In this document: positions 37,870-53,924 of the stretch, in pieces | Layout: the number at the start of each line of letters is the position of its first letter | How positions within the stretch are numbered: the stretch's first letter is position 1 | Assembly: GCA_004134985.1 (NCBI GenBank) | Contig: REGQ01000007.1 | Coordinates: forward strand, 153,615-217,614 | Origin: Paenibacillaceae bacterium | GTDB lineage: Bacteria > Bacillota > Bacilli > Paenibacillales > Paenibacillaceae | Length of the DNA: 64,000 nt | Direction of reading: 5' to 3' | The notes under the pieces: generated by a model | What the model saw: the letters and a program-made list of their open reading frames with translations, nothing else | Databases searched by the model: none | Told to the model about the DNA's origin: nothing | Position numbers and translations under genes: made by a program

Positions 37870-38113
37870 TTTTTGACGTCAGAGCGAACGCTTCCCCATT
37901 CTCATGAAAAGGCGTTTTGCTCAGCGATTGGCTGAAGTCGCGCAGCGCATACGTTTTTCCGGCGCAGGACTCCTCGACGATCAGCCCCATACCGCGGGTT
38001 TGCTTCAGATACGTCAGCGCGACGACCGTCTCCTGCGAAGCGACCGACGGATAAGCCTGGTTAGCGCTCGCTTCCTTGGCGCTGGACGTTCCCTTGACGT
38101 AGGCATTTTCCAC
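37870..38113 (-). pseudogene. mobile-element AAA/ExeA-like ATPase remnant
   Basis: The minus-strand frame reads YPSVASQETVVALTYLKQTR, then GMGLIVEESCAGKTYALRDF. This resembles ExeA/TniB-type ATPases that accompany transposases, where the sequence is usually GIGLITGE.GSGKT. The P-loop is damaged (ESCAGKT lacks a glycine) and nothing recognisable follows for about 40 codons before the integrase remnant. Identification rests on that one motif block. Probably non-functional. Confidence 0.5.
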
Positions 38114-38203
38114 AAACCTTACCGCTTTGCCTCGGCCACCGCTTAAACCTCGACGTTTTTAGACAGGATTTACCACTCATATAATATACTCCGAGTTTTT
38201 ATT

Positions 38204-39729
38204 TAACTCAATTTTCGCAGCATGAAATCGGTAAATAAGCCTTGATGTAACTGGGCAAAGCAGCAATCCATTGCTGGAGTTGACGCTGAATCAGAGCCGA
38301 AAGTTTCTTCCCGGCTTTGGCGGCGACTTCATGGACTAAATCGACCAGGTTGCTGCAGGGCCAATGTCCAGTCGAGCGTGCCGACTTCGTCGCACAGCAA
38401 ATAAACCAAACCGCCAAACGAGCGAGCGTCCGTGCTTTGCCGATGCTGCCAAGCCAGTAGAATATAACGCGAGAACACAATGGTAGTGTGGCTAACAAGC
38501 AAGTCGTACGAGCGGCCCTGGAACTCTTTTTGCAGGAGCAGCAGCGATTTCGCACACTTAAAGAACACCTCGATATCCCAACGCATCCAGTAGATCCGGA
38601 TGATCTCTTGGGCGGTCAGGGCTAGATCGGTCGAAAGGATGGCCAGCCATTCGGCGTTTTTTTTGGAACGATGACGACGAACAAACACTATCACGACCGG
38701 GATTCCCGGGGCGAGGTCGGTTTGAATCAAACGTAGAATGTTCCGGTTTTTCCCCTCCACGCGTGGTGCGGCGGCGTACAACTCCCTCAGGCTGAGTCGC
38801 TGTCCGTTCATGAGATAGCACTTGTTGTCGTTCTTTACCATGCCGATCACATGCAGCCCGCGGCGGAGGACTTCTTGGATGAGCGGCGCATGCGTAAACC
38901 AGTTATCCATCAAAGCGTACGAGGCCGAGATCCCGGCTTGTAGCGCACGATCCAACATGGCTGAGATCACATGTGGAGCCGAACGAAACGCTTCTTGCCG
39001 ACGTTTATAGCCGTGGCTTCGTTTGTCGATCCCGCCTGTCATTCCTGTGATTCCGGACTTTGCTGAACTGAGCAGCCCAACGTCTATGGGGACAAACGAA
39101 TGGCCGTCCGACCAGCCCATTTTCAATATGCGGAAGCCTTTGTAGAAAGCGCCTGTGGCATGATCTTTAAAGCGTGCCAGCATCTCCACAGCCTTGCTGC
39201 GGTTGCGTTCAAACATGGAATCGTCGAAGATAAAGGCTCTCTCCCGGTTGGACGAGGTCAACGGTTCCATCCGAGCGATCGTTTCACCGCTGAGCGACAA
39301 CAAAAACAGCCGCCAGGCATAGCCGCTATGATTTAAGAAACGATAGACCGTGTTTTTACCGGGAAACCTTTCTCCTTTCTTGCTTTCCAAGAGACGGAAC
39401 CAGTTCTTCTGGTGAAAAGAACAAACACAAGGCGGAATAAGTAAGCGCACGTAAAGCCAAATTTCTTGTTAAAACCCGCGCCACGCAAGTGTTTGAGTAC
39501 CATTAGTCCCTGAAAAGCCGGTTTAATTTCGTTTGGCAGTTGATCAAGTGACGTTTTCTGGTCTATCATAGAGTAGACACCTCTTCTGTGTGGTAGTGAT
39601 TGCTAATCACCTTCACTTTACCAAACGAAGCGGTGTTTTTCTATTTTCGTCAAGCCAACAACCCAATTGACTTCAAACCTAGGCTACACGTACTGTTGAG
39701 CTAACTTTGGCTCTGCGAAAGTTGAGTTA
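38204..39729 (-). mobile_element. IS4-family insertion sequence with both ends
   Basis: An element of about 1526 bases bounded by 17-base inverted repeats: TAACTCAATTTTCGCAG (38204-38220) and the complement of CTGCGAAAGTTGAGTTA (39713-39729), with one mismatch. It encloses one transposase gene on the minus strand. I could not find a clear target-site duplication at the flanks, so the exact ends could differ by a few bases. Confidence 0.75.
38208..39569 (-). pseudogene. IS4-family transposase, frameshifted
   Basis: The product is split over three frames. Part 1 (39569 to about 39400) begins MIDQKTSLDQLPNEIKPAFQ. Part 2 (about 39420-38330) carries the catalytic core: AFIFDDSMFERNRSK (first Asp), ALMDNWFTHAPLIQEV (second Asp) and YWMRWDIEVFFKCAK, the Y-(2)-R-(3)-E-(6)-K signature of IS4 transposases. 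Part 3 continues from DEVGTLDWTLALQQ into LVDLVHEVAAKAGKKLSALI and ends at 38208. Two frameshifts make it inactive unless they are sequencing errors. Confidence 0.85.
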
Positions 39730-40032
39730 TTTAATAATTAACGGTAAAAGACAAGATTATCTTATATTAAAGTATTCACTCCCTATAGTATTATAAAAAA
39801 GTGAATATTTACCACGAATTGGATTTTTACAAGATTTTGAAAACCAAAATCCAGGGGATAAAAGGATGAGTTTCAAAATCAAAATCCAGGGGATAAAGGG
39901 ATGAGTTTCAAAATCAAAACTTTTCCATTAAATTATGGCTCAAAACAGAAACCAGTGCTTGACGAAGTAGCCGGAGGATAAAAATGGAAAATCCTCTGCT
40001 GATCCTGTAAAGTTGTAAGTCCCCTCCCACAG
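39730..40032. other. A+T-rich gene-free stretch with a 35-base tandem repeat
   Basis: No gene is supported here. Two copies of a 35-base unit lie head to tail (39845-39879 and 39880-39914, one difference); each holds AATCCAGGGGATAAA and GATGAGTTTCAAAATC. A third partial match to the unit start precedes them. Probably the left flank of the decayed ISL3 element. Confidence 0.6.
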
Positions 40033-40929
40033 ATGGCAATCCAGTATATTAATGAAATGCCCACTATATCAGAACTTACGATTAGCCAAATCCTGTTCAT
40101 CGGTCACGACGAGCTTCATATTGAAGCTTTGCCTGTCGGTCATAAGCAAGATTGTCCCTGCTGCAAGTCGGAGCAAGCGGTCATCCGTAAAGGGTATAAT
40201 GAAATGCGGGATCCGGTATCTGGCTGTATTTTAGAAGAAAACCTACTTGTTCGTATCGAGCATCCGCATGTACTGCGTGAATTGTGAAATTGGGTTTGGT
40301 TGGGCATATGATTTTGTTGATCCTAAACAGGGTTACAGCCATCTGTTTCGTTCACGCGTCGTGGAACAAGTACTCGTTACAACGGCTACTCATAGCGCCC
40401 GGATGCAGCAAGCGCCGGTTAGCACGTGCAGAATATGCATAACCAGGCTGTGCCAATGATTTGTCAGCAGCTTACCGATCAGCATGGGAAGAAGCGCACG
40501 AGACCAACGATTTGGTGCTCGGCATTGATGACTTCGCGATCAGAAAAGGTCATACCTACAATACCGGCATTCACAACCTGAAAGGAGAGACCATGCTGGA
40601 TCTCCTACCCAGACGCAAACTGGAGGATTTACGCGCGTATGCCTGTGAGCATCCCCAATTTCGCATACTCAATGACAAAGCGGTCATGATGGATTTGACC
40701 CAAGCTTACCGCACCTGGATTCGGGAGTGTTTTCGATCGGCTATCCCGATCGCCGATCGTTTCCACGTACACGGTTACGTAATGAGAGTGTACAAGAGGT
40801 GCGTAATACGGTTCATCAGTGCTTCTCGCCGCGAGCAAAGGCGTATTTAAAGGCCAACAATTGCTTGCTGAAAGGCTTACCAACATCGTCACTTCACCAG
40901 CTACAAAGCTGGCATTCTATCCTGAATAA
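40033..40929 (+). pseudogene. ISL3-family transposase remnant, frameshifted and truncated
   Basis: Successive frames together give an ISL3 transposase. The N-terminal zinc region shows DCPCCKSEQAVIRKGYNEMR and CVNCEIGFGWAYDF. A segment with QGYSHLFRSRVVEQVLVTT follows. The catalytic domain reads VLGIDDFAIRKGHTYNTGI (first Asp) and IPIADRFHVHGYV (second Asp), then VRNTVHQCFSPRAKAYLKAN. At least three frameshifts are needed and the C-terminal third with the catalytic Glu is missing. It stops 30 bases before the radical SAM gene. Confidence 0.8.
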
Positions 40930-40959
40930 ATGAAATATAAGAAAAAATTGGAGGTTATT

Positions 40960-42270
40960 ATGTCAAAAAAACTAAAATCTTCAAAATTTAATGTTGAAGT
41001 CTACGATAAAGAAGGTAATTTATTGATATTTAATACGCTTACCGGTAATAAAACTAAAATCGGTTCGACTTCAGCCGCGCGCGTTGCAAAATTATTAAGA
41101 GAACCTCAATCCTCACTGAGCAGTGAACTGGACAAGGATTTTTTTATATCACAGAAGTTTATAATTGATGAACAAACTGACGAGTATGAAGTCGCGAGTG
41201 AATTACATAGAAATACAATAAACGCACATAGAACGTTAACACTTATCCTCTTGCCTACAGAGAACTGCAATTTTAGATGTAAGTATTGTTATGAGTCATT
41301 TGAGAAGAACTGGATGACTGAAAATGTGCGAAACGCTGTGGTGGAATATGTTGCGAAAAACATATCGAATTATGACAGTATTCATTTTGAGTGGTTTGGC
41401 GGAGAACCACTAACAGCGTATCCCGTAATAGAGGCAATATCAGAAAGAGTCATCAATATTTGCCGAAAGAATAAAGTTCGTTATACGGCAAGTATGACGA
41501 CGAATGGTTACTTACTTAACTTAGATATGTTTAGAAAATTGCAAAAATTAAGAGTTGTTAAATATCAAATTTCATTAGACGGAGCTAAAGAATTTCATGA
41601 TTCTCAAAGAGTATTATTTGGCGGACAAGGTAGCTTTGAAAAGATTTTTCGAAATCTCAAAGCTATAAAGGACAATATAACTTCAAGTAGTTTTCTGATA
41701 AATGTGAGATCGAATATTTCTGCTGGAATGCTTGATTCCCTAGATACGTTTTCAGGTTTCTTAGCTACTAATTTCTCTAATGATAAAAGATTTAATTTCT
41801 TTTGGAAAACTGTAGGTGACTGGGGCGGCGATTCAGTAAAAAATATGAATTTATGTACATTAGAAGATTTACTGCCTCAGATAGGAGAAAACATCAAGAA
41901 AGGTTTAGATTTCAGACCATTTACAAATGTCATATATCCCGGAGAAAGCGTATGCTACGCTGCGAAGAAAAACAACTTTGTAATCGGATCAGATGGAATT
42001 GTTTATAAGTGTACAGTGGCATTTAATATGGAAGAGAATCAAATAGGGCAGTTAAATGACGACGGTTCTATGACAATAAATGAAGAACGCTTAAAGTTAT
42101 GGGTCACTGGACATGAAGAAAGTGATTCAAATTGTCAAAAGTGCTTTTTTAGACCATCATGCCAAGGTGCAACTTGTCCTCTCAGTAGAATCCAGACTTC
42201 AAAGAGTCCATGTCCACCTCAAAAAAGCAATATTAAAACATATGTAGAGTATCAATTCGAAACAGTTTAA
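40960..42270 (+). CDS. radical SAM/SPASM peptide maturase
   Basis: A 436-residue enzyme. The N-terminal 90 residues (LLIFNTLTG motif) look like the domain that precedes the barrel in peptide-modifying members. The radical SAM cluster is C103-x3-C107-x2-C110 (ENCNFRCKYCYE), followed by FEWFGGEPL and TTNGYLL. The C-terminal third has the SPASM Cys pattern: SVCYAAKK, VYKCTVAF, NCQKCFFRPSCQGATC and SPCPP. Such enzymes bind extra Fe-S clusters and cross-link or epimerise ribosomal peptides. The start at ATG 40960 has TTGGAGG upstream; an ATG at 40930 is unlikely. It opens the RiPP cluster. The exact reaction is unknown. Confidence 0.9.
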   Translation: MSKKLKSSKFNVEVYDKEGNLLIFNTLTGNKTKIGSTSAARVAKLLREPQSSLSSELDKDFFISQKFIIDEQTDEYEVASELHRNTINAHRTLTLILLPTENCNFRCKYCYESFEKNWMTENVRNAVVEYVAKNISNYDSIHFEWFGGEPLTAYPVIEAISERVINICRKNKVRYTASMTTNGYLLNLDMFRKLQKLRVVKYQISLDGAKEFHDSQRVLFGGQGSFEKIFRNLKAIKDNITSSSFLINVRSNISAGMLDSLDTFSGFLATNFSNDKRFNFFWKTVGDWGGDSVKNMNLCTLEDLLPQIGENIKKGLDFRPFTNVIYPGESVCYAAKKNNFVIGSDGIVYKCTVAFNMEENQIGQLNDDGSMTINEERLKLWVTGHEESDSNCQKCFFRPSCQGATCPLSRIQTSKSPCPPQKSNIKTYVEYQFETV

Positions 42271-42281
42271 AGGTGGTTAAT

Positions 42282-42503
42282 ATGGATACGAAAATCAATT
42301 TACTTAAAATTTATGACCAGTTCGGTATCAATCCAGAGGAAGAGTTAAATAGCCAGTTAGATTCATTAGATTTCGTTACATTAATAATAGAAATAGAAGA
42401 GAATTTTAATGTAAGTGTGCCAGAAGATTTGCTTAATGTCGACGTGTTGACAACTGATAAACTTGTTAATTTGATAGATCAAGAATTAGAGAAAGGCAAT
42501 TAG
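42282..42503 (+). CDS. acyl/peptidyl carrier-like protein
   Basis: A 73-residue four-helix carrier protein. The phosphopantetheine site is LDSLDFVTLIIEIEENF with Ser28, and the flanks INPEEELNSQ and VSVPEDLLN fit the acyl-carrier fold. It begins at ATG 42282 behind AAAGGTGG, 11 bases after the radical SAM stop. No acyltransferase, ketosynthase or adenylation gene is in the cluster, so what it carries is unclear. From memory, carrier-related proteins accompany some clostridial Cys-rich peptide radical SAM systems. It probably needs the host's phosphopantetheinyl transferase. Confidence 0.85.
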   Translation: MDTKINLLKIYDQFGINPEEELNSQLDSLDFVTLIIEIEENFNVSVPEDLLNVDVLTTDKLVNLIDQELEKGN

Positions 42504-42550
42504 GCAATGCAGGTGTAGTAATTCAGCTTGAATGAAAGGAGGTGAGTTAA

Positions 42551-42652
42551 ATGAAACAAAAGCTGAAAAAAATCAATTTTGTTAAGTCGAAGAATTTGGT
42601 TGTAACACTCGCAGTAATAGGTACAAATGAAAATTGCAGCGGGAATTGCTAA
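42551..42652 (+). CDS. RiPP precursor peptide, copy 1
   Basis: A 33-residue peptide: MKQKLKKINFVKSKN, then LVVTLAVIG and the C-terminus GTNENCSGNC. The N-terminal half is lysine-rich and looks like a leader; the last 10-12 residues look like the modified core. It has a near-perfect ribosome binding site, AAAGGAGGTGA (42535-42545). The second copy differs only at residue 22 (Val here, Tyr there). A C-terminal Cys fits the LanD-like decarboxylase in the cluster, and Cys29 could be a radical SAM target. No GG cleavage motif is present. Precursor identity is inferred from size, duplication and neighbours. Confidence 0.85.
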   Translation: MKQKLKKINFVKSKNLVVTLAVIGTNENCSGNC

Positions 42653-42677
42653 AGTTGAATGAAAGGAAGTGAGTTAA

Positions 42678-42779
42678 ATGAAACAAAAGCTGAAAAAAAT
42701 CAATTTTGTAAAGTCAAAGAATTTGGTTGTAACACTCGCATATATCGGTACAAATGAAAATTGCAGCGGGAATTGCTAA
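42678..42779 (+). CDS. RiPP precursor peptide, copy 2 (V22Y variant)
   Basis: A 33-residue peptide identical to copy 1 except Tyr at residue 22 (LAYIG instead of LAVIG). It lies in a tandem duplication with a 127-base period that includes the ribosome binding region. Its binding site is AAAGGAAGTGA, one base weaker than in copy 1, so it may be made at a lower level. Synonymous third-base changes elsewhere while the protein stays identical point to selection on the peptide sequence. A 16-base-pair hairpin follows 12 bases after the stop. Confidence 0.84.
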   Translation: MKQKLKKINFVKSKNLVVTLAYIGTNENCSGNC

Positions 42780-42791
42780 AGTTGAATGAAG

Positions 42792-42830
42792 AATTACCTT
42801 CTATAAATGAATTTTTTATAGAAGGTAATT
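42792..42830. repeat. 16-base perfect hairpin after the precursor genes
   Basis: AATTACCTTCTATAAA (42792-42807) and TTTATAGAAGGTAATT (42815-42830) pair perfectly around a 7-base loop. No T-run follows on the plus strand. It could stabilise the 3' end of the precursor mRNA, raising peptide output over downstream genes, or end the transcript inefficiently. Confidence 0.75.
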
Positions 42831-42878
42831 ACCTTCAAATTCATGGTACCATTTAACCAGGGTCCTATTACTCTCACT

Positions 42879-43223
42879 TTATCGGCTGAAGACAGGGAAA
42901 TCCAACGCACGCACCGGTTTCAAGAGTTGTTTCAATTCTTCAGAGCTGCTATTTTTAAGATTCCTGGTAGAGAGAATGGCCGCTGAAATAAGCAATGTGA
43001 GATATCGTTCATACAATTGTGTCGTGTTCAGGTCGCTCATGTCGACACAGCGTTGATACAGTATGATAAGCACATCCCCAAAAAATGTGCAGTGGTAGGT
43101 CCAATTGACAACTACGCTCATTAGAGCTGTTCCACAATGCGAACAGTACGTCAGTTCGCTGAAGAAGTAAACCTTTTTCCATGATACAATTCGTTTCTTA
43201 GCGGACTCCTTCGATGCCTTCAT
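42879..43223 (-). pseudogene. probable transposase-related fragment inside the RiPP cluster
   Basis: A 114-residue open frame on the opposite strand to its neighbours. It contains VYFFSELTYCSHCGTALMSV and HCTFFGDVLIILYQRCVDMS, a Cys-x2-Cys plus Cys pattern like the N-terminal zinc region of some transposases. The remainder has no recognised motif. There is no good binding site. It most likely marks an old insertion between the precursors and the transglutaminase-like gene. Identification is weak. Confidence 0.35.
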
Positions 43224-43284
43224 TAACCGAAAAGTTGAGAAATCCTAGCTTGGTTAGTTAAACAATAAGTCGTAGTTTTTCGAG

Positions 43285-43312
43285 TTAACGGTGACCTTGC
43301 TAGGTTTATAAT
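43285..43312 (+). promoter_or_regulatory. candidate promoter for the second half of the RiPP cluster
   Basis: TTAACG (43285-43290) and a perfect TATAAT (43307-43312) with 16-base spacing lie 20 bases before the transglutaminase-like gene. The remnant separating the two halves may have made an independent promoter necessary. Confidence 0.5.
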
Positions 43313-43332
43313 AAAGAAAATGGGGGTGAACG

Positions 43333-44073
43333 ATGTTTACATATATTGAAAGCGATCATGATTATCTCGTCAACCTAAAGAGGGAATACGGATTAGAAGA
43401 ATTGATCCACACTCACTCTGATGACTTCAGTAAAGTGAAGTCACTATGTGATTGGGCCCATCATAAGTTGTTTTATACACCAGCTGGATATGAGAGTACG
43501 CTTATGGATCCTGATAACATAATAAGAGAAGCAAAAATAAAAAAAATAGGTTTTAGATGCATAGAGTTTGCCATTGTTTTAAACGGATTGATCAATTCAA
43601 TCGGAATAGTATCTAGAATTGTTTTTTTGCATAAAAAGGCTATGGAGAAACTTATTGGTGGAGCGACACATGCGGTTGTAGAAGCGTTTCTGCCTTCATC
43701 GGGCAAGTGGGCATTATTTGACGCAGCGTATAATCAGCATGTTTTGCTAAATAATGTGCCTCTAAATTGCTATGAAACCTTATTAAACTATAAAAATGTT
43801 GAGGCATCGAGTTACGTTAGCTCTATACATAAATACCTTTATTATTTTGAGAGTTATTATGATAATCATGTGTTCATCGCCGATCATCATGTGGACTCCA
43901 AAAAAATAATGCTCGTTACTGGAGGCGAACATGAGCCAAGAGTTTATCAAAGGGTCCACCCGTTAATTAATGTAGATGTTACATTTAACCCCGATAATTT
44001 TTATATAATTCCGACGAGTTATCAAAGTTTGAGGAGAGAATATGATTACGGAAAAAATATCCAAACCGTTTAA
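43333..44073 (+). CDS. transglutaminase-like fold protein (cysteine-protease superfamily)
   Basis: A 246-residue protein with the transglutaminase-core triad. Cys76 lies in GFRCIEFAIVLNGLINSIGI, His113 in GGATHAVVEAFLP, and Asp130 in KWALFDAAYNQHV. All three residues and their spacing match the superfamily, which includes transglutaminases, peptidases and amide-forming enzymes. No signal peptide is visible, so it should act in the cytoplasm. The binding site is GGGGGTGA. Its last 32 bases overlap the next gene. Possible roles are leader removal, cross-linking or macrocyclisation of the peptide; none is shown. Confidence 0.75.
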   Translation: MFTYIESDHDYLVNLKREYGLEELIHTHSDDFSKVKSLCDWAHHKLFYTPAGYESTLMDPDNIIREAKIKKIGFRCIEFAIVLNGLINSIGIVSRIVFLHKKAMEKLIGGATHAVVEAFLPSSGKWALFDAAYNQHVLLNNVPLNCYETLLNYKNVEASSYVSSIHKYLYYFESYYDNHVFIADHHVDSKKIMLVTGGEHEPRVYQRVHPLINVDVTFNPDNFYIIPTSYQSLRREYDYGKNIQTV

Positions 44074-45886
44074 AGCCGACATAGTAATAATTGATACTGG
44101 TGTTGATATTAAACATGAGCTGTTTGGCGACAAGGCTTTTTTTGGAGTAAATATATATAATCGCGACGACAAAATATATGTTGGCACTAACATACAAGAT
44201 GAAATAGGACACGGTACTGCGATAACACATAAAATTATTACCATTTGTCCATGGGCTTCAGTATTTATAATCAAAATTTTTCAACAAGATCGGGAAGTAG
44301 ACGAAAATATTCTACTTCGAGCATTGGAGTTTATTAAAGAAAATATTGAGTGTAACGTCATTAATATTAGTGCCGGTCTAACCATATGTACAAGGCTGCA
44401 CGATCTACAACAGATTTGTAAAGAACTACACAACGATAACATAATTCTAATATCTGCTTTTCATAGTGATGGATCTCTTTCTTACCCAGCAAGCTTCAAA
44501 GAAGTGATTGGGGTTGAAATGGGAATGGATTATAAAAATGATGATGAATTTGATTATGTCGAAAGCGATTTCGTAAATATTATTGGAAGAAGCGGACGTC
44601 AAAAATTGGCAAATATTAGTTCGTCATTTCAATATGTAGAAGGTAGTAGTTTTTCAACAGCAGTAATTAGTGGACTTGTTTTAAATTACTTGCATGAACG
44701 TAATAGTTACACATTTAATGAAATAATGACCTATTTAAAAATACACGCTATAAAGGTTTATGAGAAATCGCAAAGTGTTGTTGATAATTCGTTTGGTTTT
44801 GAATTAAGAAAAGCCATAGCATTTCCATTCAACAAAGAGATGAGTAACATGATAAAATTTCACGATTTGTTAAGTTTCAATGTAACAAAAGTATTGCATG
44901 TCAAATATTCAGGTCAAGTTGGTAAACTTGTATCAGAAATAATTGGTACTAAGGTTGATAAAGACTTCGTAATTGAAAATATAGACTCCTTAGACTGGGA
45001 GGCGCAATTTGATACTGTTATTTTAGGTCACACCGTGGAACTCTCAAAGAAAATGAAGAAAGATATAAATCAGGAAATACTGAAAAAATGTATTAAATAT
45101 GGGAAAAATTTATATGCATTTGACCCATTACTTAATTATGATGTGTTAATTCAAGAAGCTAGGTCTAATAATTGTAATGTGTTTTTTCCCACTGTTGATA
45201 AAAATCAATTGCCAGCACATAGATTTGGAAAGTTGTGTGAATTATCAACACCTGTTTTGGGTATATTTGGTACATCTTCCATGCAAGGTAAATTTACACT
45301 GCAATTGGTGTTACGATCAGTATTTAAAGCAAATGGATATGAGGTTGGACAGTTGGGTACGGAGCCATCATCTTTATTATTTGGTTTCGATGAAATGTAT
45401 CCAATGGGATATAATTCGAACCTCTCTGTTTCAAGGCATGAAGCGTTGCAAGTTATTAATGACAAGTTGATGAGAATTGAAAGAAAACAAGTTGATATTA
45501 TTTTAGTTGGAAGCCAAAGTAGTACGATACCTGAACTTACCACAAATACCGCCTTCTATACGTTTAAACAAATAGAATTCTTGATGGCTACCAATCCGGA
45601 TATTGCGATTCTCTGTGTAAATGTAGACGATGATTATCACAATGTTTTAAAAACGATCAATGCAATCCAATCACTAAGTAGAGCCAACGTTTTGTCCTTA
45701 GTTATTTACCCAGTTATTAAGAAAATAACCACAAATAATCTATATCAGCTAACGAAACCTTCCAAACATCAGTTAGATGAATATAGAATTGGACTGCAAG
45801 AAATGGCCTCATTACCTGTCTTTATACTTGGGATTAATGATGAGATGGAAAGATTGTATGAGCAAATTATTCACACATTATCATAA
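44042..45886 (+). CDS. subtilisin-like (S8) domain fused to a P-loop domain, peptide maturation protein
   Basis: A 614-residue two-part protein. Residues 10-220 are a compact S8 peptidase domain with Asp18 (VIIDTGVDIKHE), His57 (GHGTA) and Ser203 (GSSFSTAVISG). The oxyanion Asn that normally sits in an AAGN motif appears replaced by His141 (SAFHSDG). Residues from about 280 form a second domain with a P-loop-like GIFGTSSMQGKFTLQLVLR near 407-425, recalling the C-terminal domain of DUF1611-type proteins. No signal peptide, so it is cytoplasmic. The start ATG 44042 follows GAGGAG and lies within the previous gene. Likely role: leader cleavage coupled to an ATP-dependent step; this is inference. 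Confidence 0.75.
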   Translation: MITEKISKPFKADIVIIDTGVDIKHELFGDKAFFGVNIYNRDDKIYVGTNIQDEIGHGTAITHKIITICPWASVFIIKIFQQDREVDENILLRALEFIKENIECNVINISAGLTICTRLHDLQQICKELHNDNIILISAFHSDGSLSYPASFKEVIGVEMGMDYKNDDEFDYVESDFVNIIGRSGRQKLANISSSFQYVEGSSFSTAVISGLVLNYLHERNSYTFNEIMTYLKIHAIKVYEKSQSVVDNSFGFELRKAIAFPFNKEMSNMIKFHDLLSFNVTKVLHVKYSGQVGKLVSEIIGTKVDKDFVIENIDSLDWEAQFDTVILGHTVELSKKMKKDINQEILKKCIKYGKNLYAFDPLLNYDVLIQEARSNNCNVFFPTVDKNQLPAHRFGKLCELSTPVLGIFGTSSMQGKFTLQLVLRSVFKANGYEVGQLGTEPSSLLFGFDEMYPMGYNSNLSVSRHEALQVINDKLMRIERKQVDIILVGSQSSTIPELTTNTAFYTFKQIEFLMATNPDIAILCVNVDDDYHNVLKTINAIQSLSRANVLSLVIYPVIKKITTNNLYQLTKPSKHQLDEYRIGLQEMASLPVFILGINDEMERLYEQIIHTLS

Positions 45887-45918
45887 CTACATCTTAAACG
45901 ATAGGTAGGATTATAGTG

Positions 45919-46485
45919 ATGAGACGTGAGGATTTTTATAATAATGGGAATTTATTGGTAGGATGTACTGGGACTGTTGAATCTATTGATTTTTATAGGC
46001 AGATTTGGCATCTAAAGTCGACAGTTTGCAAGAACATAAAAATAATAGTAACTGATGATGCTAAGAATTTTATTAATGTCACACTACTCAAAACAATCAC
46101 ACATTGTGAAGTATACGATTCGATGTTTTCAGAAGGTCTTTCCGTACCTCACGTCAATTTACCACTATGGGCTGACGTATTTCTGATTCTTTGTGCTTCT
46201 GCTAATTCTATTGCCAAGATCGCAAATGGCCATTCTGATAACCTTTTGACTGCAGCGGTACTTAACGCAAGTTGTCCGGTTATATTGGTTCCCAGCATGA
46301 ATAAACAAATGTGGAGAAAACCATCAGTTCAACGAAACATTGACACTCTTGTGAAAGATGCAATAATTGTTTGCGCGTTTGAAGTTAGAGTATTTGAAGC
46401 GGCGACATTAACCTCCGAGGAGGGGATTTCGGTAGATTTCCCTAAATTGATACTTAGGCTAAGCCGGGTAATTAGAACTTTATAG
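45919..46485 (+). CDS. LanD/EpiD-type flavoprotein cysteine decarboxylase (HFCD family)
   Basis: A 188-residue HFCD flavoprotein. It has NLLVGCTGTV for FMN binding, catalytic His78 in SVPHVNLPLWADVFLI, CASANSIAKIANG at 92-104 (the PASANT-type motif) and PSMNKQMW at 125-132 (the PxMNxxMW motif). EpiD and MrsD of this family oxidatively decarboxylate a peptide C-terminal Cys to an enethiol. Both precursors here end in Cys, which supports the same chemistry. The Dfp/CoaC housekeeping enzyme is an alternative, but the length and setting favour the peptide type. ATG 45919 is preferred over GTG 45916. Confidence 0.87.
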   Translation: MRREDFYNNGNLLVGCTGTVESIDFYRQIWHLKSTVCKNIKIIVTDDAKNFINVTLLKTITHCEVYDSMFSEGLSVPHVNLPLWADVFLILCASANSIAKIANGHSDNLLTAAVLNASCPVILVPSMNKQMWRKPSVQRNIDTLVKDAIIVCAFEVRVFEAATLTSEEGISVDFPKLILRLSRVIRTL

Positions 46486-46529
46486 TGTTGTGGATAAATT
46501 TCTAGATAATAACATAAAGGAGGCTTTTC

Positions 46530-48293
46530 ATGCAAACAAGAAGATATCTCGTCTTCTTATTCCCATATTTGAAAAAATATAAGCGTGAATACACAATTTT
46601 GTTCTTCTGTATTGGAATAGGGATGTTATTAAATTTAGCCATAGCTTGGTTTTTTCAAAATATGACAAATAACCTTTTGGGTGGTACGAACGATGGATTA
46701 GTATTATTTCTTGTACTGGGTATTTCTATTATCATAGTCATGATGTTAACAAACTATATTAATACTTTTTATGTAGCTAAAACGACAAGTTTGGTTAAAA
46801 ATGATATTCGAATAAAAATGTTTAATCATATGATTGAATTTCCTATGAGTTTTTTCGATTCGAACCATAGTGGTGAAATCCAGTCAAGAATACAACAAGA
46901 TACCGAACAATTAGATGGAGTTTTAGGACATAATATAATTCAATTTGTAATCTTACCGGTTTCAGGAATTGTGGCTTTTGTTTATCTCTCTTTTATTCAT
47001 CTTCCAATGTCTTTAATAGCGCTAACTTTAGGGCCTTTAATATTACTCGTTAGTAAGATGTTCGGTCAGACTATTCGAAACAACGGCGTAGCCATTCAAA
47101 ATAACTTAGCTAAATTAACGCAGCAATTACAAGAGGCATTATCCGGCCATATGATTACAAAAGTATTAAGGTTAGAACACGAAATATCCAATAAGTATAT
47201 CCATAAAAGTGAGGACGTACTGAACACGCAATTCAAGGAAGCTAGAGTCAGTGGAGTATTACAAGCAATATCAATTGGTATAAGTTATTGTTCTCAAATA
47301 ATGATATTTGCGATAGGTTGTTTCTTTGTAGCAAATGGTGATCTAAGAGTGGGCGACCTTTTTGCTTTTATAGTCCTTTCGCAGTCACTTATTACTCCAT
47401 TCTCAAACATGGGACACTTATGGTCTAACCTACAGAGATCTTTGGCTGCTGTTGTTAGGATCTATGATTTTTTGAATATAACCAAGGATCGTTTCGTAAT
47501 AAAGAATAAGGTTGAGCAAGTGCCTGTTGCTATTGAATTCAAGAATGTTAGCTTTTCATACAATGATAGTAAAAAGGTGCTAATTGATGTGAATCTAAAA
47601 ATAAAGCCTGGCGAACGTGTTGCGATCATTGGGGAAAGTGGATCTGGAAAGAGTACATTATTGAAGGTTCTGTTGGGATTATATCACCCAACAGAAGGAG
47701 AAGTCTGGTTATATCCAGAAAATAAAGAAGCGACTATGGTAGAGGGAATTAACCCGTATACATCTTACGTACCACAAGATTACTTTTTATTTGATGATAG
47801 CATATATCAAAATATTCAATATGGTGAACTTAACGCGACGAATGACCAAATACAATATGCTGCTAATATGGCTAATGCGCATCCATTTATATTAGATCTA
47901 CCTGATCAATATAACTTTCGAGTAGGCGAGCGCGGATCAAAGTTATCAGGCGGCCAGAGACAACGGATAACTTTAGCGCGTGCTTTTATAGGTAATCACT
48001 CGATTGTTGTACTTGATGAGGCTACTTCGGCTTTAGACGTACAAACTGAAGAGTTTATTATCAAGCACATACTTGAATTACGGAAAGATCACTCCTTAAT
48101 CATGATTACACACAGGCTATCTACAGCTATGAATTTCGATAGGATTATACTAATGGATAATGGGTGCCTAATTGCATCAGGGACACATACCGAGCTTTTA
48201 AGGACCAGTGACAAATATAAAAAATTATTTGAGCATTTCCTAAGTACCGACTCCAGGCCTGTTGATTATCCAATAACAGGGACAGGAAATTGA
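46530..48293 (+). CDS. ABC exporter, fused membrane and ATPase domains
   Basis: A 587-residue half-transporter. Six membrane helices occupy residues 1-300. The ATPase has GESGSGKST (Walker A), the Q-loop YVPQDYFLF, the signature KLSGGQRQR, Walker B IVVLDEATSALD and the H-loop MITHR. It lacks an N-terminal C39 peptidase, so leader removal must be done by another protein such as the S8 or transglutaminase-like one. It probably exports the mature peptide and may give self-protection. The start ATG 46530 has AAGGAGG upstream. Last gene of the cluster. Confidence 0.93.
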   Translation: MQTRRYLVFLFPYLKKYKREYTILFFCIGIGMLLNLAIAWFFQNMTNNLLGGTNDGLVLFLVLGISIIIVMMLTNYINTFYVAKTTSLVKNDIRIKMFNHMIEFPMSFFDSNHSGEIQSRIQQDTEQLDGVLGHNIIQFVILPVSGIVAFVYLSFIHLPMSLIALTLGPLILLVSKMFGQTIRNNGVAIQNNLAKLTQQLQEALSGHMITKVLRLEHEISNKYIHKSEDVLNTQFKEARVSGVLQAISIGISYCSQIMIFAIGCFFVANGDLRVGDLFAFIVLSQSLITPFSNMGHLWSNLQRSLAAVVRIYDFLNITKDRFVIKNKVEQVPVAIEFKNVSFSYNDSKKVLIDVNLKIKPGERVAIIGESGSGKSTLLKVLLGLYHPTEGEVWLYPENKEATMVEGINPYTSYVPQDYFLFDDSIYQNIQYGELNATNDQIQYAANMANAHPFILDLPDQYNFRVGERGSKLSGGQRQRITLARAFIGNHSIVVLDEATSALDVQTEEFIIKHILELRKDHSLIMITHRLSTAMNFDRIILMDNGCLIASGTHTELLRTSDKYKKLFEHFLSTDSRPVDYPITGTGN

Positions 48294-49080
48294 AAAGAGG
48301 CCTTGCCTTTAGAAGAATCGATAGTTACCACACCAACGATATCACGACACAGGGAAGAAATTCACGGTATACACCCTGGTTCAATTTTTAACAAATGCTG
48401 CGGCAGGGGAGTGGGAAGTTGCTGTACTGATTCGGACAAAGCAGCACTTGCGGATTGCCGTCCGTGAACTATTCGACATTCTCCAAGAAAGCCGCAGATG
48501 TACCTTATGAAGTGTTCAAACGATTGTTTGAAATTATGGTTATTAATTTGGAGAACACAATGGGATTATGGACGAAGCAGCAACTGCGAGATTTTATTAA
48601 AGAGAACAAACTGGTGACAGCAAAAGATGCACAGGACGCGTTCAAAAATCTGTTCGCCGAGACGATTAAGGAAGTGCTGGAGGTGGAGATGGACACCCAT
48701 CTGGGTTATGCCAAGCATGAAACATCGGAGAAAACGACGACGAATTCACGCAATGCAAGAGCCACAAGTAGATCACCAGCGAGTATGGCGAGCAGGAAAT
48801 TGAGGTTCCGCAACCGTCAAGTTTAAGCCGCTGGTCAAAGAGTGGCAGAATCGGCCGCTGCAAAACGTCTATGCGGTTGTCTTTCTCGATGCCATCCATT
48901 TCAAGGTAAAACAAGATGGTGCTATCGTGAACAAGGCCGCGCACATGGACATTGGCATTGATTTGGACGGCAACAAGGGTGTTTTTGGGCATCTGGATCG
49001 GCGAGAACGAGTCCGCCACGTTCTGGCTCAGCGTGCTGAACGAGCTGAAAAACCACGGCAGACCCGTACAATAGTGTCTT
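48294..49080 (+). pseudogene. IS256-family (Mutator-type) transposase remnant
   Basis: The 48455-48826 frame has LWTKQQLRDFIKENKLVTAK, DAFKNLFAETIKEVLEVEMD and THLGYAKHETSEKTTTNSRN, all from the IS256 N-terminus. A different frame then gives EWQNRPLQNVYAVVFLDAIH and FKVKQDGAIVNKAAHMDIGI, the start of the catalytic domain, and it ends in frameshifts near ENESATFWLSVLNELKNHG. An internal deletion of roughly 100 codons and several frameshifts make it dead. Bases 48294-48454 hold no gene. Confidence 0.8.
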
Positions 49081-49227
49081 GACCACTTAAACCAAGTAGT
49101 TAATGCGCTCAATGCGCTAGTAATTTGGACAATAATACACAGTAAAGTTTATAACTCTCGTATTGTTCTGCTGAGAAATACGGGATAATATAATATTACA
49201 GTAAATACTAATTTGTGGGGTTTGAAT

Positions 49228-50661
49228 ATGTCTCAAAAGATATTGCCTCTTGATAAGTCGCCAATTACAAGCTATCAGAACGCTTCTTATTTCCTTTCCA
49301 TTTCACTGAGCAGTGATGATGCAAGGCCATGGATGTATAGTAACTTCATTCAGTTATATACAAGCGAGGGTGACAGAGAGGTTCATTTCTATAAGGCAGA
49401 TGATTTGAAATTTTACCCGTGGCTGGATTATGTGCAAATTGATAAACTTCTCATCATGCAGCACAAAATAGATATATTTGAATGGATCAAAAACTATGTC
49501 GACAGAGAACACTATATTCATATTTTTCTGAACAAATATTATGTATCAGGAACATCATATTATCACGAAATTAACCAGGTTCATGATTTGCTTATCCGTG
49601 GCTATGATGAGGTCAAGGGGCAAGTTTATATATCCGCTTACAATGAGCGAGGAGTATATGCGAGCTGGTGGATACCTATCGGCGACGTAATACAAGGTTT
49701 CGCAACGGAACAATACGACAGTAACGAAATGACGTTAAAAGCAAGCGCGATCAAGTGTAACCGACATTATAGCTATCAACTCGATTTAAACAATATGTTG
49801 GAATTGTCGCGCGATTATTTGTTTTCCCGCAATACGTCGAAAAGAACAAGTATAATCGCTAGTCCCATGTATCGTACATACGGAATTGAAGTTTATGATA
49901 AGATAACCATGCTTTTATACTCTAGCAAGCGGCAAGTGCTGGATCTTCGACCTTTGCGTGTTCTCTGGGAGCATAAAAAAATAATGGTTCAGCGGATTAA
50001 ATTTTTGAAAGAACATAATATTTTCTATAATACCGATTTAGAACAGGGCTTCAAACAGATAGAAGATGAGACTAACACGGTGCGAAATATAGCTTTGAAA
50101 TATAACATGTCTCAAAATCAAAAGCTGGTTCATCACATTATTTCAAAACTCAGCATGATAAAGGAACGGGAAAGCCGTCTATTTAAAATATTGGTGAATG
50201 AAATGGAAGCAGCAAGTATAGCTTTTAAATGGAAGAACAGACAACTGGAACATTTATGGCAGTTCTTTAATGAGTATTTTTTGATCAAAGAGACGTATGA
50301 TGACCCTGAGGTTGCTGTGCAAATAACGGAACTCTTGTATGCAGTGGGGAAAGACAAAGCTATCATTGATATTTTGTTGTTCCGTATGCCGATCGACTTT
50401 GTGCCGAGAATGTTTGTACATGCAAGAGAAAAAGCGTATGAGCTGTTTGTGAGGATTTATGAAATCATTAAAGACAGGTTGAGCCTTCATCAGGTCTCCT
50501 TCATCAACCATCTCACGGACAAATACAAGCAGTTGTTTTTGCATGTAGAGGATGCCCCCTTTCGAGAAAGCATATTGCAGGAATTAGATTTTCTTTATTC
50601 CACTTATAGACGACAGGAGATATTGGAATTGAAAGAAAAATTACTCAACTTTCGCACCTAG
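49228..50661 (+). CDS. protein of unknown function with a possible degenerate C39/BtrH-like domain
   Basis: A 477-residue soluble protein, A+T-rich like the cluster. Its first 170 residues suggest a papain-fold domain: HYIHIFLNKYYVSGTSYYHE then INQVHDLLIRGYDEVKGQVY, the usual His and Gly-Tyr-Asp region of C39/BtrH-like domains. The N-terminal position that should hold Cys is Ser/Tyr (ITSYQNASYF), so catalysis is doubtful. The C-terminal 300 residues are helical with a repeated Leu/Ile pattern and are unrecognised. The start ATG 49228 follows GTGGGG. I do not recognise the function; the cluster context could be coincidental. Confidence 0.55.
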   Translation: MSQKILPLDKSPITSYQNASYFLSISLSSDDARPWMYSNFIQLYTSEGDREVHFYKADDLKFYPWLDYVQIDKLLIMQHKIDIFEWIKNYVDREHYIHIFLNKYYVSGTSYYHEINQVHDLLIRGYDEVKGQVYISAYNERGVYASWWIPIGDVIQGFATEQYDSNEMTLKASAIKCNRHYSYQLDLNNMLELSRDYLFSRNTSKRTSIIASPMYRTYGIEVYDKITMLLYSSKRQVLDLRPLRVLWEHKKIMVQRIKFLKEHNIFYNTDLEQGFKQIEDETNTVRNIALKYNMSQNQKLVHHIISKLSMIKERESRLFKILVNEMEAASIAFKWKNRQLEHLWQFFNEYFLIKETYDDPEVAVQITELLYAVGKDKAIIDILLFRMPIDFVPRMFVHAREKAYELFVRIYEIIKDRLSLHQVSFINHLTDKYKQLFLHVEDAPFRESILQELDFLYSTYRRQEILELKEKLLNFRT

Positions 50662-50921
50662 AAAATCGACTTAAATCCTTGAGGGCGTAAGAAGAATTCA
50701 ATACAAGTATTGACAAAAAGACCTCACTTGTTTGGTATCATGGAAGTGTCGAACAACCACATGCCAACAAGAAAGGTGTCATCAGCCACTTTAATTGTAG
50801 GTGAATTCGGAACCGCCAATGACGGTGGCTTTTTGCATTCGTCACCAACATGGATTTGGCGATCAGATTCAGGCGATCAGAATGACGGTCAAAATATAAG
50901 ACCCGCCATTGGTAGGTCAGT

Positions 50922-51120
50922 TTAGAAGGACACACGGTATTTGGTTTTGGTATGGAGCCAGAACTTCACACCTCCAAAAGCAACGTAGCGCTCCGTATCA
51001 AGCTCTACATTCGCCGGGTAAAGAACGTTTCCGAGCTCAAAGATCATCGGATTCCCGCAATGCAAGGGATAGAGCAGCCTCATCCCTTCATAGACACGCC
51101 AGCGCCTCGGTCGTAAAGAT
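50922..51120 (-). pseudogene. decayed small ORF, possibly DUF5348-like
   Basis: The minus strand reads VYEGMRLLYPLHCGNPMIFE, then NVLYPANVELDTERYVAFGG and FWLHTKTKYRVSF before a stop at 50922-50924. The pattern of a Cys-Gly turn, an Asp-x-Glu pair and a Tyr-Val strand recalls small DUF5348 proteins. No start codon or ribosome binding site is present, so it is probably a fragment. The family link is from memory and weak. Confidence 0.35.
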
Positions 51121-51441
51121 CGGATTAGTACTGCCGGCAGCCTCGACCGCCTTTCCAGCTTTATGGCGGCAGCCGATTACCGCGGCGCGCGTGTTGTTCC
51201 TTCCTTTTGACGCTTCCACAACCCTTTTTCCTCGCCAGTCCATCGCCTGCGCGATATGCTATAGAAGCTGCATTCCTCTGCTAAAAGCTACCTCTACCTT
51301 CACCTCTGCGTCTGCTTCTGTCCTCTATAGTTAACCACTGATTTTTTAGTTTGAGACCCAATTGACTCAACTTTAGTTGCTAAGGTCGATCTTGCCATAT
51401 GAGCGCCAGGTCATTGATATCATGCGTCTGCATCTATCAAT

Positions 51442-51477
51442 CTTTATTGTTGTTGGGTCGAACGCTCAACAATAAAG
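51442..51477. repeat. 11-base inverted repeat
   Basis: CTTTATTGTTG (51442-51452) and CAACAATAAAG (51467-51477) are perfect complements around 14 bases. Related TTGTTG-containing arms recur at 51655-51675 (TTGTTGTA-AGAAA-TACAACAA, perfect). Together they form a local family of A+T-rich hairpins. Confidence 0.7.
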
Positions 51478-51654
51478 GAATAGCAGCTGTATTTCCACTT
51501 TTAACCTTGTTTTATTTTCTCAAGTACTAATTTTGGGGTTGTGCCCCTAAAATTGTTGTATTTTCTGCAAGAATTTAGTTCATAATCTGTCATTTCCCTA
51601 AAATTGTTGTGCTTTATGCAACATTTTTTATGAAATAGCAATAATTAGGCGTTA

Positions 51655-51675
51655 TTGTTGTAAGAAATACAACAA
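51655..51675. repeat. 8-base inverted repeat TTGTTGTA/TACAACAA
   Basis: Perfect 8-base stem with loop AGAAA. The arm is part of a motif family (AAATTGTTGT) that recurs at about 51550 and 51601, so the four occurrences are probably related. Possible operators, recombination sites or remains of an element end. Confidence 0.6.
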
Positions 51676-51726
51676 TTTAAAGCTTTACTTAAAAATCAGT
51701 GCTTGTCTCCTGCGGGAAGGGGAGCC

Positions 51727-51795
51727 GAGGGATGCAGGGGTTGTAGAGGAATGCAGGGGGTTGTAGAGGGATGCTGAGGATGCAGAGGGTTGCTG
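51727..51795. repeat. G-rich tandem repeat, 19-20 base unit
   Basis: Three full units and one partial unit of the form GAGGGATGCAGGGGTTGTA lie at 51727-51745, 51746-51765, 51766-51784 and 51785-51795. The unit has clear strand bias (G-rich on plus). No coding role is apparent. Confidence 0.75.
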
Positions 51796-51954
51796 AAAGA
51801 ACGAAATGATTGCTTTTTAAAGCTGTATTTCAACCTTTTGAAAAATAGAGATAAGAAATCCGGCTTGGAATGGCGATTGAAGTACCCTGCAGCCCCGCAG
51901 CAGCACGCCCGCCTGTCGTCGAAATCTGAGTTTGGTTTTGAGCCAAAAAAACAT

Positions 51955-51983
51955 TTGATCATTTTGGATGAAAGTCGTATACT
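51955..51983 (+). promoter_or_regulatory. promoter for cysH-sat
   Basis: TTGATC (51955-51960) and TATACT (51978-51983), 17 bases apart, lie about 50 bases before cysH. The short leader leaves no room for an S-box riboswitch. Regulation by a repressor such as CymR is possible, but no operator was recognised. Confidence 0.6.
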
Positions 51984-52031
51984 TAAGAAAGCAGACAAAA
52001 TTACTTGGGATTTAAAAAGGAGGACAATGGC

Positions 52032-52724
52032 ATGAATTTGTTTGAAAAAGAGGCATTGGTCAAGCAGAAGGCTGAAGAGCTTGAGCATGCTTCCCCGGAA
52101 GCAATTCTGCAATATGCGGTCGAGACATTTCCGAATATTACATTTGCCTGCAGCTTTGGTGCTGAGGATGTAGTACTCGTCGATATGCTGCAAAAAATTA
52201 GTCCAGAGACAGATATTTTTTATCTTGACACCGATTTTCATTTCAAAGAAACGTATGAGACGCGTGACCGGATGGTTGAAAAGTATAATTTGAAGTTTGT
52301 GGAAGCTCGCACGTTAATTACACCGGAACAGCAGGCAGAACAGTATGGTGATGAGTTGTGGAAGAGCGACCCGAACCAATGCTGCAGCATTCGTAAAGTT
52401 CAGCCGCTTACGGAAATCCTTTCGCATTATGATGCCTGGATTACCGGCATTCGTCGCGATCAGGCGCCGACCCGTGCCAATTCGAAGAAAATTGAGTATG
52501 ATGTAAAATTTGGTCTTATTAAATTTAATCCAATTGCGCATTGGACATCGGAAGATGTATGGAAATATATTCGTGATAATGACATCATTTATAACCCGCT
52601 GCATGACAACTATTATCCGAGTATCGGTTGTGAGCACTGTACACGTCAAGTTATGCCTGGAGAAGATCCGCGTGCTGGACGTTGGGCTGGAAACGAAAAA
52701 ACAGAGTGCGGTTTGCACAAATAA
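52032..52724 (+). CDS. cysH: adenylylsulfate (APS) reductase, assimilatory Fe-S type
   Basis: A 230-residue PAPS-reductase-family enzyme. Conserved parts are FACSFGAEDVVLVDML (P-loop-like), DTDFHFKETYETRD, GIRRDQAPTRA and the end TECGLHK with the catalytic Cys. It keeps the paired cysteines QCCSIRKV and CEHCTR that bind a [4Fe-4S] cluster, the mark of APS reductases rather than E. coli PAPS reductase. It reduces APS to sulfite with thioredoxin. This fits the absence of an APS kinase next door. The start ATG 52032 has AAGGAGGA upstream. Confidence 0.95.
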   Translation: MNLFEKEALVKQKAEELEHASPEAILQYAVETFPNITFACSFGAEDVVLVDMLQKISPETDIFYLDTDFHFKETYETRDRMVEKYNLKFVEARTLITPEQQAEQYGDELWKSDPNQCCSIRKVQPLTEILSHYDAWITGIRRDQAPTRANSKKIEYDVKFGLIKFNPIAHWTSEDVWKYIRDNDIIYNPLHDNYYPSIGCEHCTRQVMPGEDPRAGRWAGNEKTECGLHK

Positions 52725-52754
52725 AGCAAAAACAATGGGGAGGTTATTTGCAGC

Positions 52755-53924
52755 ATGAGCATTATTCAGCCGCATGGCGGTGTTCTGGTAAACAGAGTAG
52801 CTGAGGGCGAGGAACGTGAGCTTCTTTTGGCTGAGGCTAAGCAGTTGCAATCGATTAACGTTAGCGCGTGGGCGATATCGGATCTTGACTTGATTGGTGT
52901 TGGCGCATTTTCTCCGTTAACCGGTTTTTTGAATGAGCAGGATTATAACTCGGTTGTTGAGTCCATGCGGCTGTCTGATGGCACGGTGTGGAGCATCCCG
53001 GTTACTCTTGCGGTGGAAGAAGTCGAAGCAGCCAAACTGGAAGTTGGCGTAAAGGCAGCGTTGGTTGGCGAGGATAATGTCATTTATGGCACAATCATTG
53101 TTGAGAGCATCTACCAAGTGGATCAAAAACGTGAAGCGGTCAACATTTTCAAAACCGACGATCTGGAGCATCCTGGGGTTGCGAAGCTGTATTCCCGTCC
53201 TTCCACTTATGTGGGGGGCTCCATTACTGTTTTAAACCGTCCGAAGCCAGAGCGTTTTGAAGAATATTATTATGATCCGAGTGAAACCCGCCGCTTGTTC
53301 GCTGAGAAGGGATGGCGGACAGTTGTCGGCTTCCAGACGAGAAACCCGGTTCACCGCGCTCATGAATATATTCAGAAATGCGCCATGGAAGTTGTCGATG
53401 CACTGTTCCTGAACCCGCTTGTGGGCGAAACAAAATCGGATGATGTGCCAGCAAATGTGCGGATGCGCAGTTATGTAGCGCTGCTGGAGAACTACTATCC
53501 GGAAGATCGCGTATTTCTGGGGGTATTCCCGGCTGCAATGCGCTATGCAGGACCACGGGAAGCTATTTTTCATGCGATTGTACGTAAAAACTATGGATGC
53601 ACCCATTTTATCGTAGGGCGCGATCATGCAGGTGTGGGCGATTATTACGGTACCTACGAGGCTCAGGATCTACTGCGTTCGTTTACCGCTGAAGAGCTGG
53701 GTATTACACCGCTTTATTTTGAACACAGCTTTTTCTGCACCAAATGCGGCAACATGGCTTCCAGCAAAACCTGTCCGCATGACAAAGCGCATCATCTTAC
53801 GCTTTCAGGCACGAAAGTACGCGCGCTGCTGCGCGATGGCCAATGTCCGCCTCCAGAGTTTTCAAGACCGGAAGTCGCGAAGATTCTGATCGAAGGCATG
53901 GCTGAGCATACTGTGCAACAATAA
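52755..53924 (+). CDS. sat: sulfate adenylyltransferase (ATP sulfurylase)
   Basis: A 389-residue single-chain ATP sulfurylase making APS from sulfate and ATP. Motifs are [17 protein letters not shown] (HxGH-like), [17 protein letters not shown], and the C-terminal [18 protein letters not shown], a Cys cluster typical of Bacillus-type Sat, then [10 protein letters not shown]. It follows cysH by 30 bases and should work directly with it. The binding site is GGGAGG. Confidence 0.96.

Follow-up and report, generated by a model that had tools for sequence, protein, structure and literature searches.

What kind of product comes from a gene cluster in which a radical S-adenosylmethionine (SAM) peptide maturase and a phosphopantetheine carrier protein stand beside two tiny peptides, and what is the role in it of a subtilisin-like protease fused to a P-loop domain? 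This question is raised by nine genes on the plus strand (40930-50661) of a 64,000-nucleotide stretch of contig REGQ01000007.1 (Paenibacillaceae bacterium, assembly GCA_004134985.1), which was analysed as a whole and is called the window here. Very probably, the set is a working cluster of the ribosomally synthesized and post-translationally modified peptide (RiPP) type and belongs to a large family. The genes, their families, the modelled folds, a shared leader, the carrier Ser, the protease triad, the P-loop and the recurrence in distant bacteria are directly supported; the product is predicted to be a small peptide with a cross-link, released by cleavage and likely blocked at both termini. 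The reading of the fused protein as a carrier-fed cut-and-cap enzyme is tentative, close to an even call but short of it.

The gene set

A previous sequence-only reading of this DNA had seen eight A+T-rich genes on one strand, two of them encoding 33-residue peptides, and the list of open reading frames (ORFs), the G+C profile (0.319-0.376 per kb over 41-48 kb versus 0.419-0.557 over the first 38 kb) and the domain matches agree with it. The strand and extent of that block, which spans 40930-48293 in the ORF list, hold as well; its start does not, as position 40960 corresponds to an internal Met, the second of the radical SAM ORF, which begins at 40930. Together with a ninth gene that the earlier reading had not included, the set reads as follows.

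40930..42270, plus strand: radical SAM/SPASM peptide maturase, 446 aa (PF04055, 69.7 bits; best NCBIfam model TIGR04463)
42273..42503, plus strand: carrier protein, 76 aa, phosphopantetheine Ser in DSLDF (PP-binding, 23.6 bits, cut-off 20.8)
42551..42652, plus strand: precursor peptide copy 1, Val22, C-terminus ENCSGNC (ORF, leader likeness)
42678..42779, plus strand: precursor peptide copy 2, Tyr22, C-terminus ENCSGNC (leader motif matched)
43333..44073, plus strand: transglutaminase-like protein, 246 aa (PF01841, 38.2 bits, cut-off 23)
44042..44782, plus strand: N-terminal half of the fusion, S8 (subtilisin-like) protease (Peptidase_S8, 40.3 bits)
44783..45886, plus strand: C-terminal half of the fusion, TIGR04066/DUF1611 domain with DgcN-like fold, Walker A GTSSMQGK (DUF1611, 31.9 bits)
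45916..46485, plus strand: LanD-type flavoprotein of the homo-oligomeric flavin-containing Cys decarboxylase (HFCD) family, predicted C-terminal Cys decarboxylase (PF02441 Flavoprotein, 83.0 bits)
46530..48293, plus strand: ATP-binding cassette (ABC) half-transporter, predicted exporter (PF00664, 167.2 bits; PF00005, 106.7 bits)
49213..50661, plus strand: ninth gene, 482 aa, CcbD/AziU3/CtaG-like fold, Gln22 in place of the nucleophile Cys (fold; no Pfam family over cut-off)

Compared with sactipeptide and ranthipeptide maturases, the radical SAM protein exceeds the PF04055 cut-off and falls just below that of SPASM (20.5 vs 21.5 bits) and below that of the PapB model (129.5 vs 340); its best NCBIfam match reaches 225 bits (cut-off 525). 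As had been claimed earlier, no lanthionine dehydratase, cyclase or YcaO domain is among the matches listed for the nine proteins (Pfam, NCBIfam), in which the set differs from lanthipeptide clusters.

Distribution of the family and its precursor peptides

Among 7994 scored candidates, 1243 relatives of the fusion were detected at E <= 0.001. The genome scan confirmed 112 loci, of which the best 80 were kept and joined by L109, L110, L106 (Tumebacillus) and the window, giving 84. All of these contain the fusion by selection, L109 and L110 come from the window's own family, several genomes contribute more than one locus, L016/L109 and L003/L106 are close relatives, and contig ends cut some loci, so that the true numbers of absences may be lower than those counted. 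Host labels include Bacillota, Spirochaetota, Bacteroidota, Latescibacterota and Gemmatimonadota, many of the genomes being metagenome-assembled; within the window's family, 8 of 394 genomes have a full-length fusion (a count that takes in the window), one of them (G071) being listed with a stop codon. Around the fusion, homologues of the carrier (74 of 84 loci), ABC (71), radical SAM (63) and ninth (58) proteins are frequent. The earlier proposal that the six protein genes travel with such precursors therefore stands for four of them (radical SAM, carrier, fusion, ABC) and only in part for the transglutaminase-like (16/84) and decarboxylase (3/84) genes.

Small ORFs near the fusion share the start MK-x-L-x-K, followed by V-x-L-Y-x-x-E and a Cys-rich tail. 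This leader motif was matched by 93 of 2451 same-strand ORFs (58 loci) and by 1 of 2893 on the opposite strand; because the loci scanned had also supplied the peptides from which it was built, the comparison of strands bears on how specific the motif is and not on its discovery. Since the same genes occur together in several phyla and the motif is found almost only on the same strand, the grouping is more than a chance one, and the assignment to a RiPP-type cluster is upheld. Removal of eight matches as chance or doubtful ORFs left 85 peptides from 53 loci. Cys is nearly restricted to their tails, which extend a median of 23 residues past the aromatic residue, while Val occupies P4 in 50 peptides and Glu P3' in 57; the aromatic P1 belongs to the motif anchor and is not independent evidence. 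No NCBIfam model matched any of eight precursor peptides compared, and the leader motif makes findable many such tiny precursors that the tested models do not name.

In the window, both peptides are preceded by sequences resembling ribosome-binding sites and differ from each other at residue 22 and by three synonymous codons; copy 2 matches the strict motif and copy 1 escapes it, as Val replaces Tyr. A C-terminal Cys was considered as a signature of loci with an HFCD gene and was dropped as not discriminating (26 of 53 loci have one). In L110, without a radical SAM match, the tail of the candidate precursor has no Cys, and other unmatched loci, such as L074 and L076, have Cys-bearing candidates. 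Three clusters from spirochaetes (L063:5876-8034, L044:1732-3192 and L057:249-1164) encode about 4-7 different precursors each, with the same leader.

The surroundings of the fusion vary in other loci. Single clusters contain a YcaO (L048:11799-13658), a carbamoyltransferase (L018:15568-17241) or a GNAT gene (L058:7102-8022), which suggests a modular tailoring platform; no other recurrent biosynthetic family is among the Pfam matches listed for 69 of 70 neighbouring proteins. A locus from Latescibacterota (L071:9938-18573) shows two tandem modules of fusion, carrier and ninth protein, with no radical SAM match. Response-regulator-like proteins of one sequence cluster occur in 18 of the 84 loci (L014, L018, L024 and others; LytTR Pfam-confirmed for L036 only) and AgrB-like proteins, assigned by eye, in 6 (Pfam AgrB in 2 of 69 scanned proteins). 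Control by peptide sensing is a possible role of these two kinds of genes.

A proposed pathway and its alternatives

Based on these families, it can be proposed that the radical SAM enzyme would cross-link the Cys core, after which the S8 half of the fusion would remove the leader. The DgcN-like half, perhaps assisted by the CcbD-like ninth protein, would then likely transfer an acyl group from the carrier protein to the new N-terminus. Oxidative decarboxylation of the C-terminal Cys to an enethiol would likely fall to the LanD-type flavoprotein, and export of the product to the ABC protein. Subtilisin favours hydrophobic residues at P4 and P1; as the V-x-L-Y consensus fits this preference and both window copies would yield one core, IGTNENCSGNC, with a calculated mass of 1110.41 Da, the leader is presumably cut after residue 22.

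Donation of an acyl group by the carrier and its transfer by the DgcN-like half are suggested by analogy. The P-loop half was modelled with a DUF1611/DgcN-type fold, and PF07755 lies over its gathering score; relative to DUF1611 proteins and the N-acetyltransferase DgcN (7xrj), with 13-18% identity, the window domain is fused to a protease and its substrate would be a peptide. In the alignment of this domain, K162, Q166, E186 and N272 are invariant. The modelled ninth protein shares the BtrH/CcbD/CtaG acyltransferase fold. All 71 normal-length aligned carriers of the fusion family, the window's included, have the phosphopantetheine Ser (78 of 79 rows of a wider alignment, the exception being a truncated ORF), and 85 of 85 fusions have the full P-loop, implying selection for a loaded carrier. 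A possible acyl source adjoins two of the loci: in L109, genes for a ketoacyl synthase, a dehydratase, a second ketoacyl synthase, a ketoreductase, a phosphopantetheinyl transferase and an enoyl reductase run head-to-tail into precursor, carrier and fusion, with an AMP-binding enzyme fused to a carrier and a BtrH_N protein (over cut-off) on the other side, and L016 carries the same fatty-acid gene set.

Several findings weigh against this pathway. The two loci with the fatty-acid set are near copies and represent one lineage, the other 82 have nothing comparable, only scattered matches to short-chain dehydrogenases/reductases and AMP-binding enzymes, and the window cluster itself contains no acyl-supply gene. 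Dethiobiotin synthetase and other ATP-using P-loop enzymes have folds like that of DgcN as well. Of 42 aligned ninth-protein sequences, 9 keep the nucleophile Cys and the other 33, to which the window's belongs, have lost it (42 of 61 matches were aligned, and the Cys column was placed by sequence and model range). A radical SAM match is missing in 21 of 84 loci, in some through contig ends, and a C-terminal Cys without an HFCD gene is so common (26/53 loci) that its presence here proves little. Finally, stand-alone TIGR04066 genes were found over cut-off at 29 places, of which 26 were retrieved and taken as CcpM-type (see below), NCBIfam confirmation coming from L115 alone. In the carrier-related genes beside these 26, the Ser position is Pro in 12, Ala in 8 and Ser in 6; the TIGR04066 domains lack the last Walker Gly in 22 of 25 readable cases and keep the Lys in all 25.

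It was also considered whether the two losses go together locus by locus; this was rejected, as only a clade-level trend is seen, with L117 and L137-L139 having Ser without Gly, L130 Gly without Ser, and L140 and L141 both. The Ser-bearing L137-L141 form one subgroup with one extra residue. Judged from the alignments, the contrast in carrier Ser and Walker Gly is a difference between two clades.

The absence of Ser beside most stand-alone TIGR04066 genes (20/26), the likeness to P-loop enzymes that use nucleoside triphosphates (NTP) and the rarity of the fatty-acid set would all suit the same RiPP pathway without acylation, in which carrier and DUF1611 half would support leader binding and cutting as a scaffold or as a chaperone powered by NTP. 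Its product, a cross-linked peptide with a decarboxylated C-terminus, would be near what the sequence-only reading had envisaged, and CcpM systems may work in this way. For the fusion family this is rather unlikely: the invariant Ser and complete P-loop speak for a loaded carrier, and the DgcN and CcbD/CtaG folds both indicate acyl transfer.

If the carrier is loaded, the group delivered might instead be an amino acid, the peptide being extended or capped by an aminoacyl unit in a logic like that of butirosin and lincosamides. PDB titles show CcbD structures that include methylthiolincosamide and a peptidyl carrier protein domain, and the available part of PMC4351081 places CcbD/LmbD in the condensation step, leaving their role open and favouring LmbE for the bond itself. 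Within the family, the AMP-binding enzyme fused to a carrier in L016/L109 would agree with such a route, and in L028 (4125-5753) a class I, methionyl-tRNA-synthetase-like gene lies directly past the carrier gene; this may be a resistance copy or an amino acid loader. Every supporting case comes from one lineage only, however, and the fatty-acid set of L109 also adjoins a precursor, which makes aminoacyl transfer improbable. N-acylation by the fusion is thus retained as the preferred reading, at the tentative level given above.

The flavoprotein

Judged from its motifs and matches, the flavoprotein probably decarboxylates the peptide. In the PDB its best matches are 7cfu (no specific name, 6e-24), MrsD (1.2e-20), EpiD (1.4e-18) and CoaBC (4.7e-16), and a profile of the three cluster flavoproteins ranks them in the same order; the gene lies 29, 29 and 11 bases past the fusion in the window, L003 and L106, respectively. 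The catalytic His and the ASAN and PxMNxxMW motifs of the HFCD family are present and the CoaC-type ACG Cys is absent. As in EpiD and MrsD, the predicted substrate has a C-terminal Cys, and the C-terminal segments FEAATLT (window) and RVSTGR (Tumebacillus) were aligned with FEIATGT of MrsD and FEISSGR of EpiD; unlike these enzymes, the flavoprotein is accompanied by no dehydratase or cyclase, its partners being a radical SAM enzyme and a carrier. With MrsD and EpiD outscoring CoaBC and the HFCD motifs present, the earlier assignment as a LanD-type decarboxylase finds support; both precursors end in Cys, as the earlier reading had also seen.

In CoaC-type enzymes a reductant Cys reduces the decarboxylation intermediate. 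Because this Cys is missing here, oxidative decarboxylation of the C-terminal Cys, forming an enethiol, is the likeliest reaction of the flavoprotein. A role in coenzyme A/phosphopantetheine supply would fit a cluster that employs a phosphopantetheine carrier, and the best NCBIfam match is indeed CoaBC (109.9 bits, cut-off 219.7). This is very improbable, as the genome has its own CoaBC, which retains GQLACG, the three cluster flavoproteins lack that Cys, and MrsD and EpiD rank above CoaBC in the PDB search. The tree spoke neither for nor against a single origin of the HFCD insertion.

Genomic setting

The block lies about 3.5 kb past the ribosomal protein L13 gene (36618). Three transposase genes or fragments lie beside and inside it (Pfam), one of the DDE_5 type at 38329-39450 and the following two.

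40461..40850, plus strand: ISL3 transposase fragment, just 5' of the cluster (PF01610, 64.4 bits)
48455..48826, plus strand: mutator-type transposase fragment, between the exporter and the ninth gene (PF00872, 25.5 bits)

Since the block is A+T-rich, is accompanied by transposase fragments and has no match to the fusion or TIGR04066 in any of six other genomes of the genus, its acquisition by horizontal transfer is suggested. The fragments at 40461 and 48455 would also suit a decaying copy with one ABC half-transporter left, as would the stretch at 42855-43260 that splits the precursors from the transglutaminase-like gene, and the two full-length ABC genes of 46 of the 84 loci, both Tumebacillus loci included. 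Decay is nevertheless the least probable of the alternatives, very improbable in itself. Every one of the nine ORFs is open, the two precursor copies are told apart by a single residue and three synonymous codons, and the S8 triad, the P-loop, the carrier Ser and the HFCD motifs are preserved. A lone full-length ABC gene, as in the window, occurs in 21 of 84 loci, and a search of the gap 48293-49213 for a second one gave insignificant matches only (best E 0.065).

The roughly 400 bases at 42855-43260 contain an antisense ORF (42879-43223), which was considered as a transposase piece, with the stretch as a transposon remnant, and rejected, as it matches no Pfam family. An Rfam scan of 38000-52000 gave nothing. 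Just downstream of the cluster are sulfate-assimilation genes for 3'-phosphoadenosine-5'-phosphosulfate reductase and ATP-sulfurylase (52005-53921), which may be chance.

Significance and comparison with known systems

No described product with this gene combination was found in the searches made, nor did the literature search find DUF1611 together with radical SAM and RiPP among 203 papers. TIGR04066/TIGR04069 are mentioned in two papers and TIGR04065 in another one. It can be hypothesized, more tentatively than the cut-and-cap role itself, that the loci represent a cross-phylum class of acyl peptides, made by a bifunctional cut-and-cap enzyme after radical cross-linking of a short Cys core, with a C-terminal enethiol in this branch. 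Recognized routes to N-acylated ribosomal peptides use GNAT-type enzymes or parts of polyketide synthases and nonribosomal peptide synthetases; if true, the present scheme would add a carrier-dependent route and would join radical chemistry to C-terminal decarboxylation. It also gives a testable function for the TIGR04066 proteins and carriers of radical SAM peptide clusters, which NCBIfam names merely 'peptide maturation system' proteins.

Single components recall other systems. The S8 half scores 96.8 bits, below the cut-off of 165, with the NCBIfam model of QhpE, the leader protease of quinohemoprotein amine dehydrogenase maturation, which belongs to a different cluster; the S8 protease of L115 is also QhpE-like (92.6 bits). 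The ninth protein differs from CcbD, AziU3, CtaG and the BtrH_N family by Gln in place of the nucleophile Cys.

The closest described system is CcpM (TIGR04065-TIGR04069), represented here by L115 and by the SacP23 cluster of Paenibacillus polymyxa. Like the window, it combines radical SAM, TIGR04066, carrier-related, S8 and ABC proteins, with the S8 protease and TIGR04066 encoded separately and not fused (PMC10731318 and L115). The SacP23 authors ascribe TIGR04066 to immunity, whereas the model obtained here folds like an N-acetyltransferase. None of the four CcpM model cut-offs is reached by the window: its radical SAM protein reaches 94.8 bits with TIGR04068 (cut-off 500; L115 615.2), its fusion 91.2 with TIGR04066 (cut-off 200; eight fusions 80.6-99.9, unbroken stand-alone proteins 238.1-429.4, L115 359.1) and its carrier 20.3 with TIGR04069 (cut-off 70; L115 itself slightly under, at 65.4), and TIGR04065 matches neither its precursors nor anything within its own genome. 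It further differs by the fusion, the ninth protein, the decarboxylase (no HFCD match in L115) and a live carrier, keeping both the Ser and the P-loop Gly that CcpM-type loci mostly lose. The precursors are alike in being short and in having an MK-x-L-x-K start and a Tyr-ending segment before the Cys-rich core; in the CLI_3235-type precursor of L115 (TIGR04065, 34.9 bits, cut-off 26) the start is the same and the leader region ends in LEAY. The overall gene logic of leader, radical SAM, TIGR04066-like, carrier, S8 and ABC proteins is common to both, and the window cluster is, as had been supposed from the sequence, distantly related to the Cys-rich peptide systems of clostridia.

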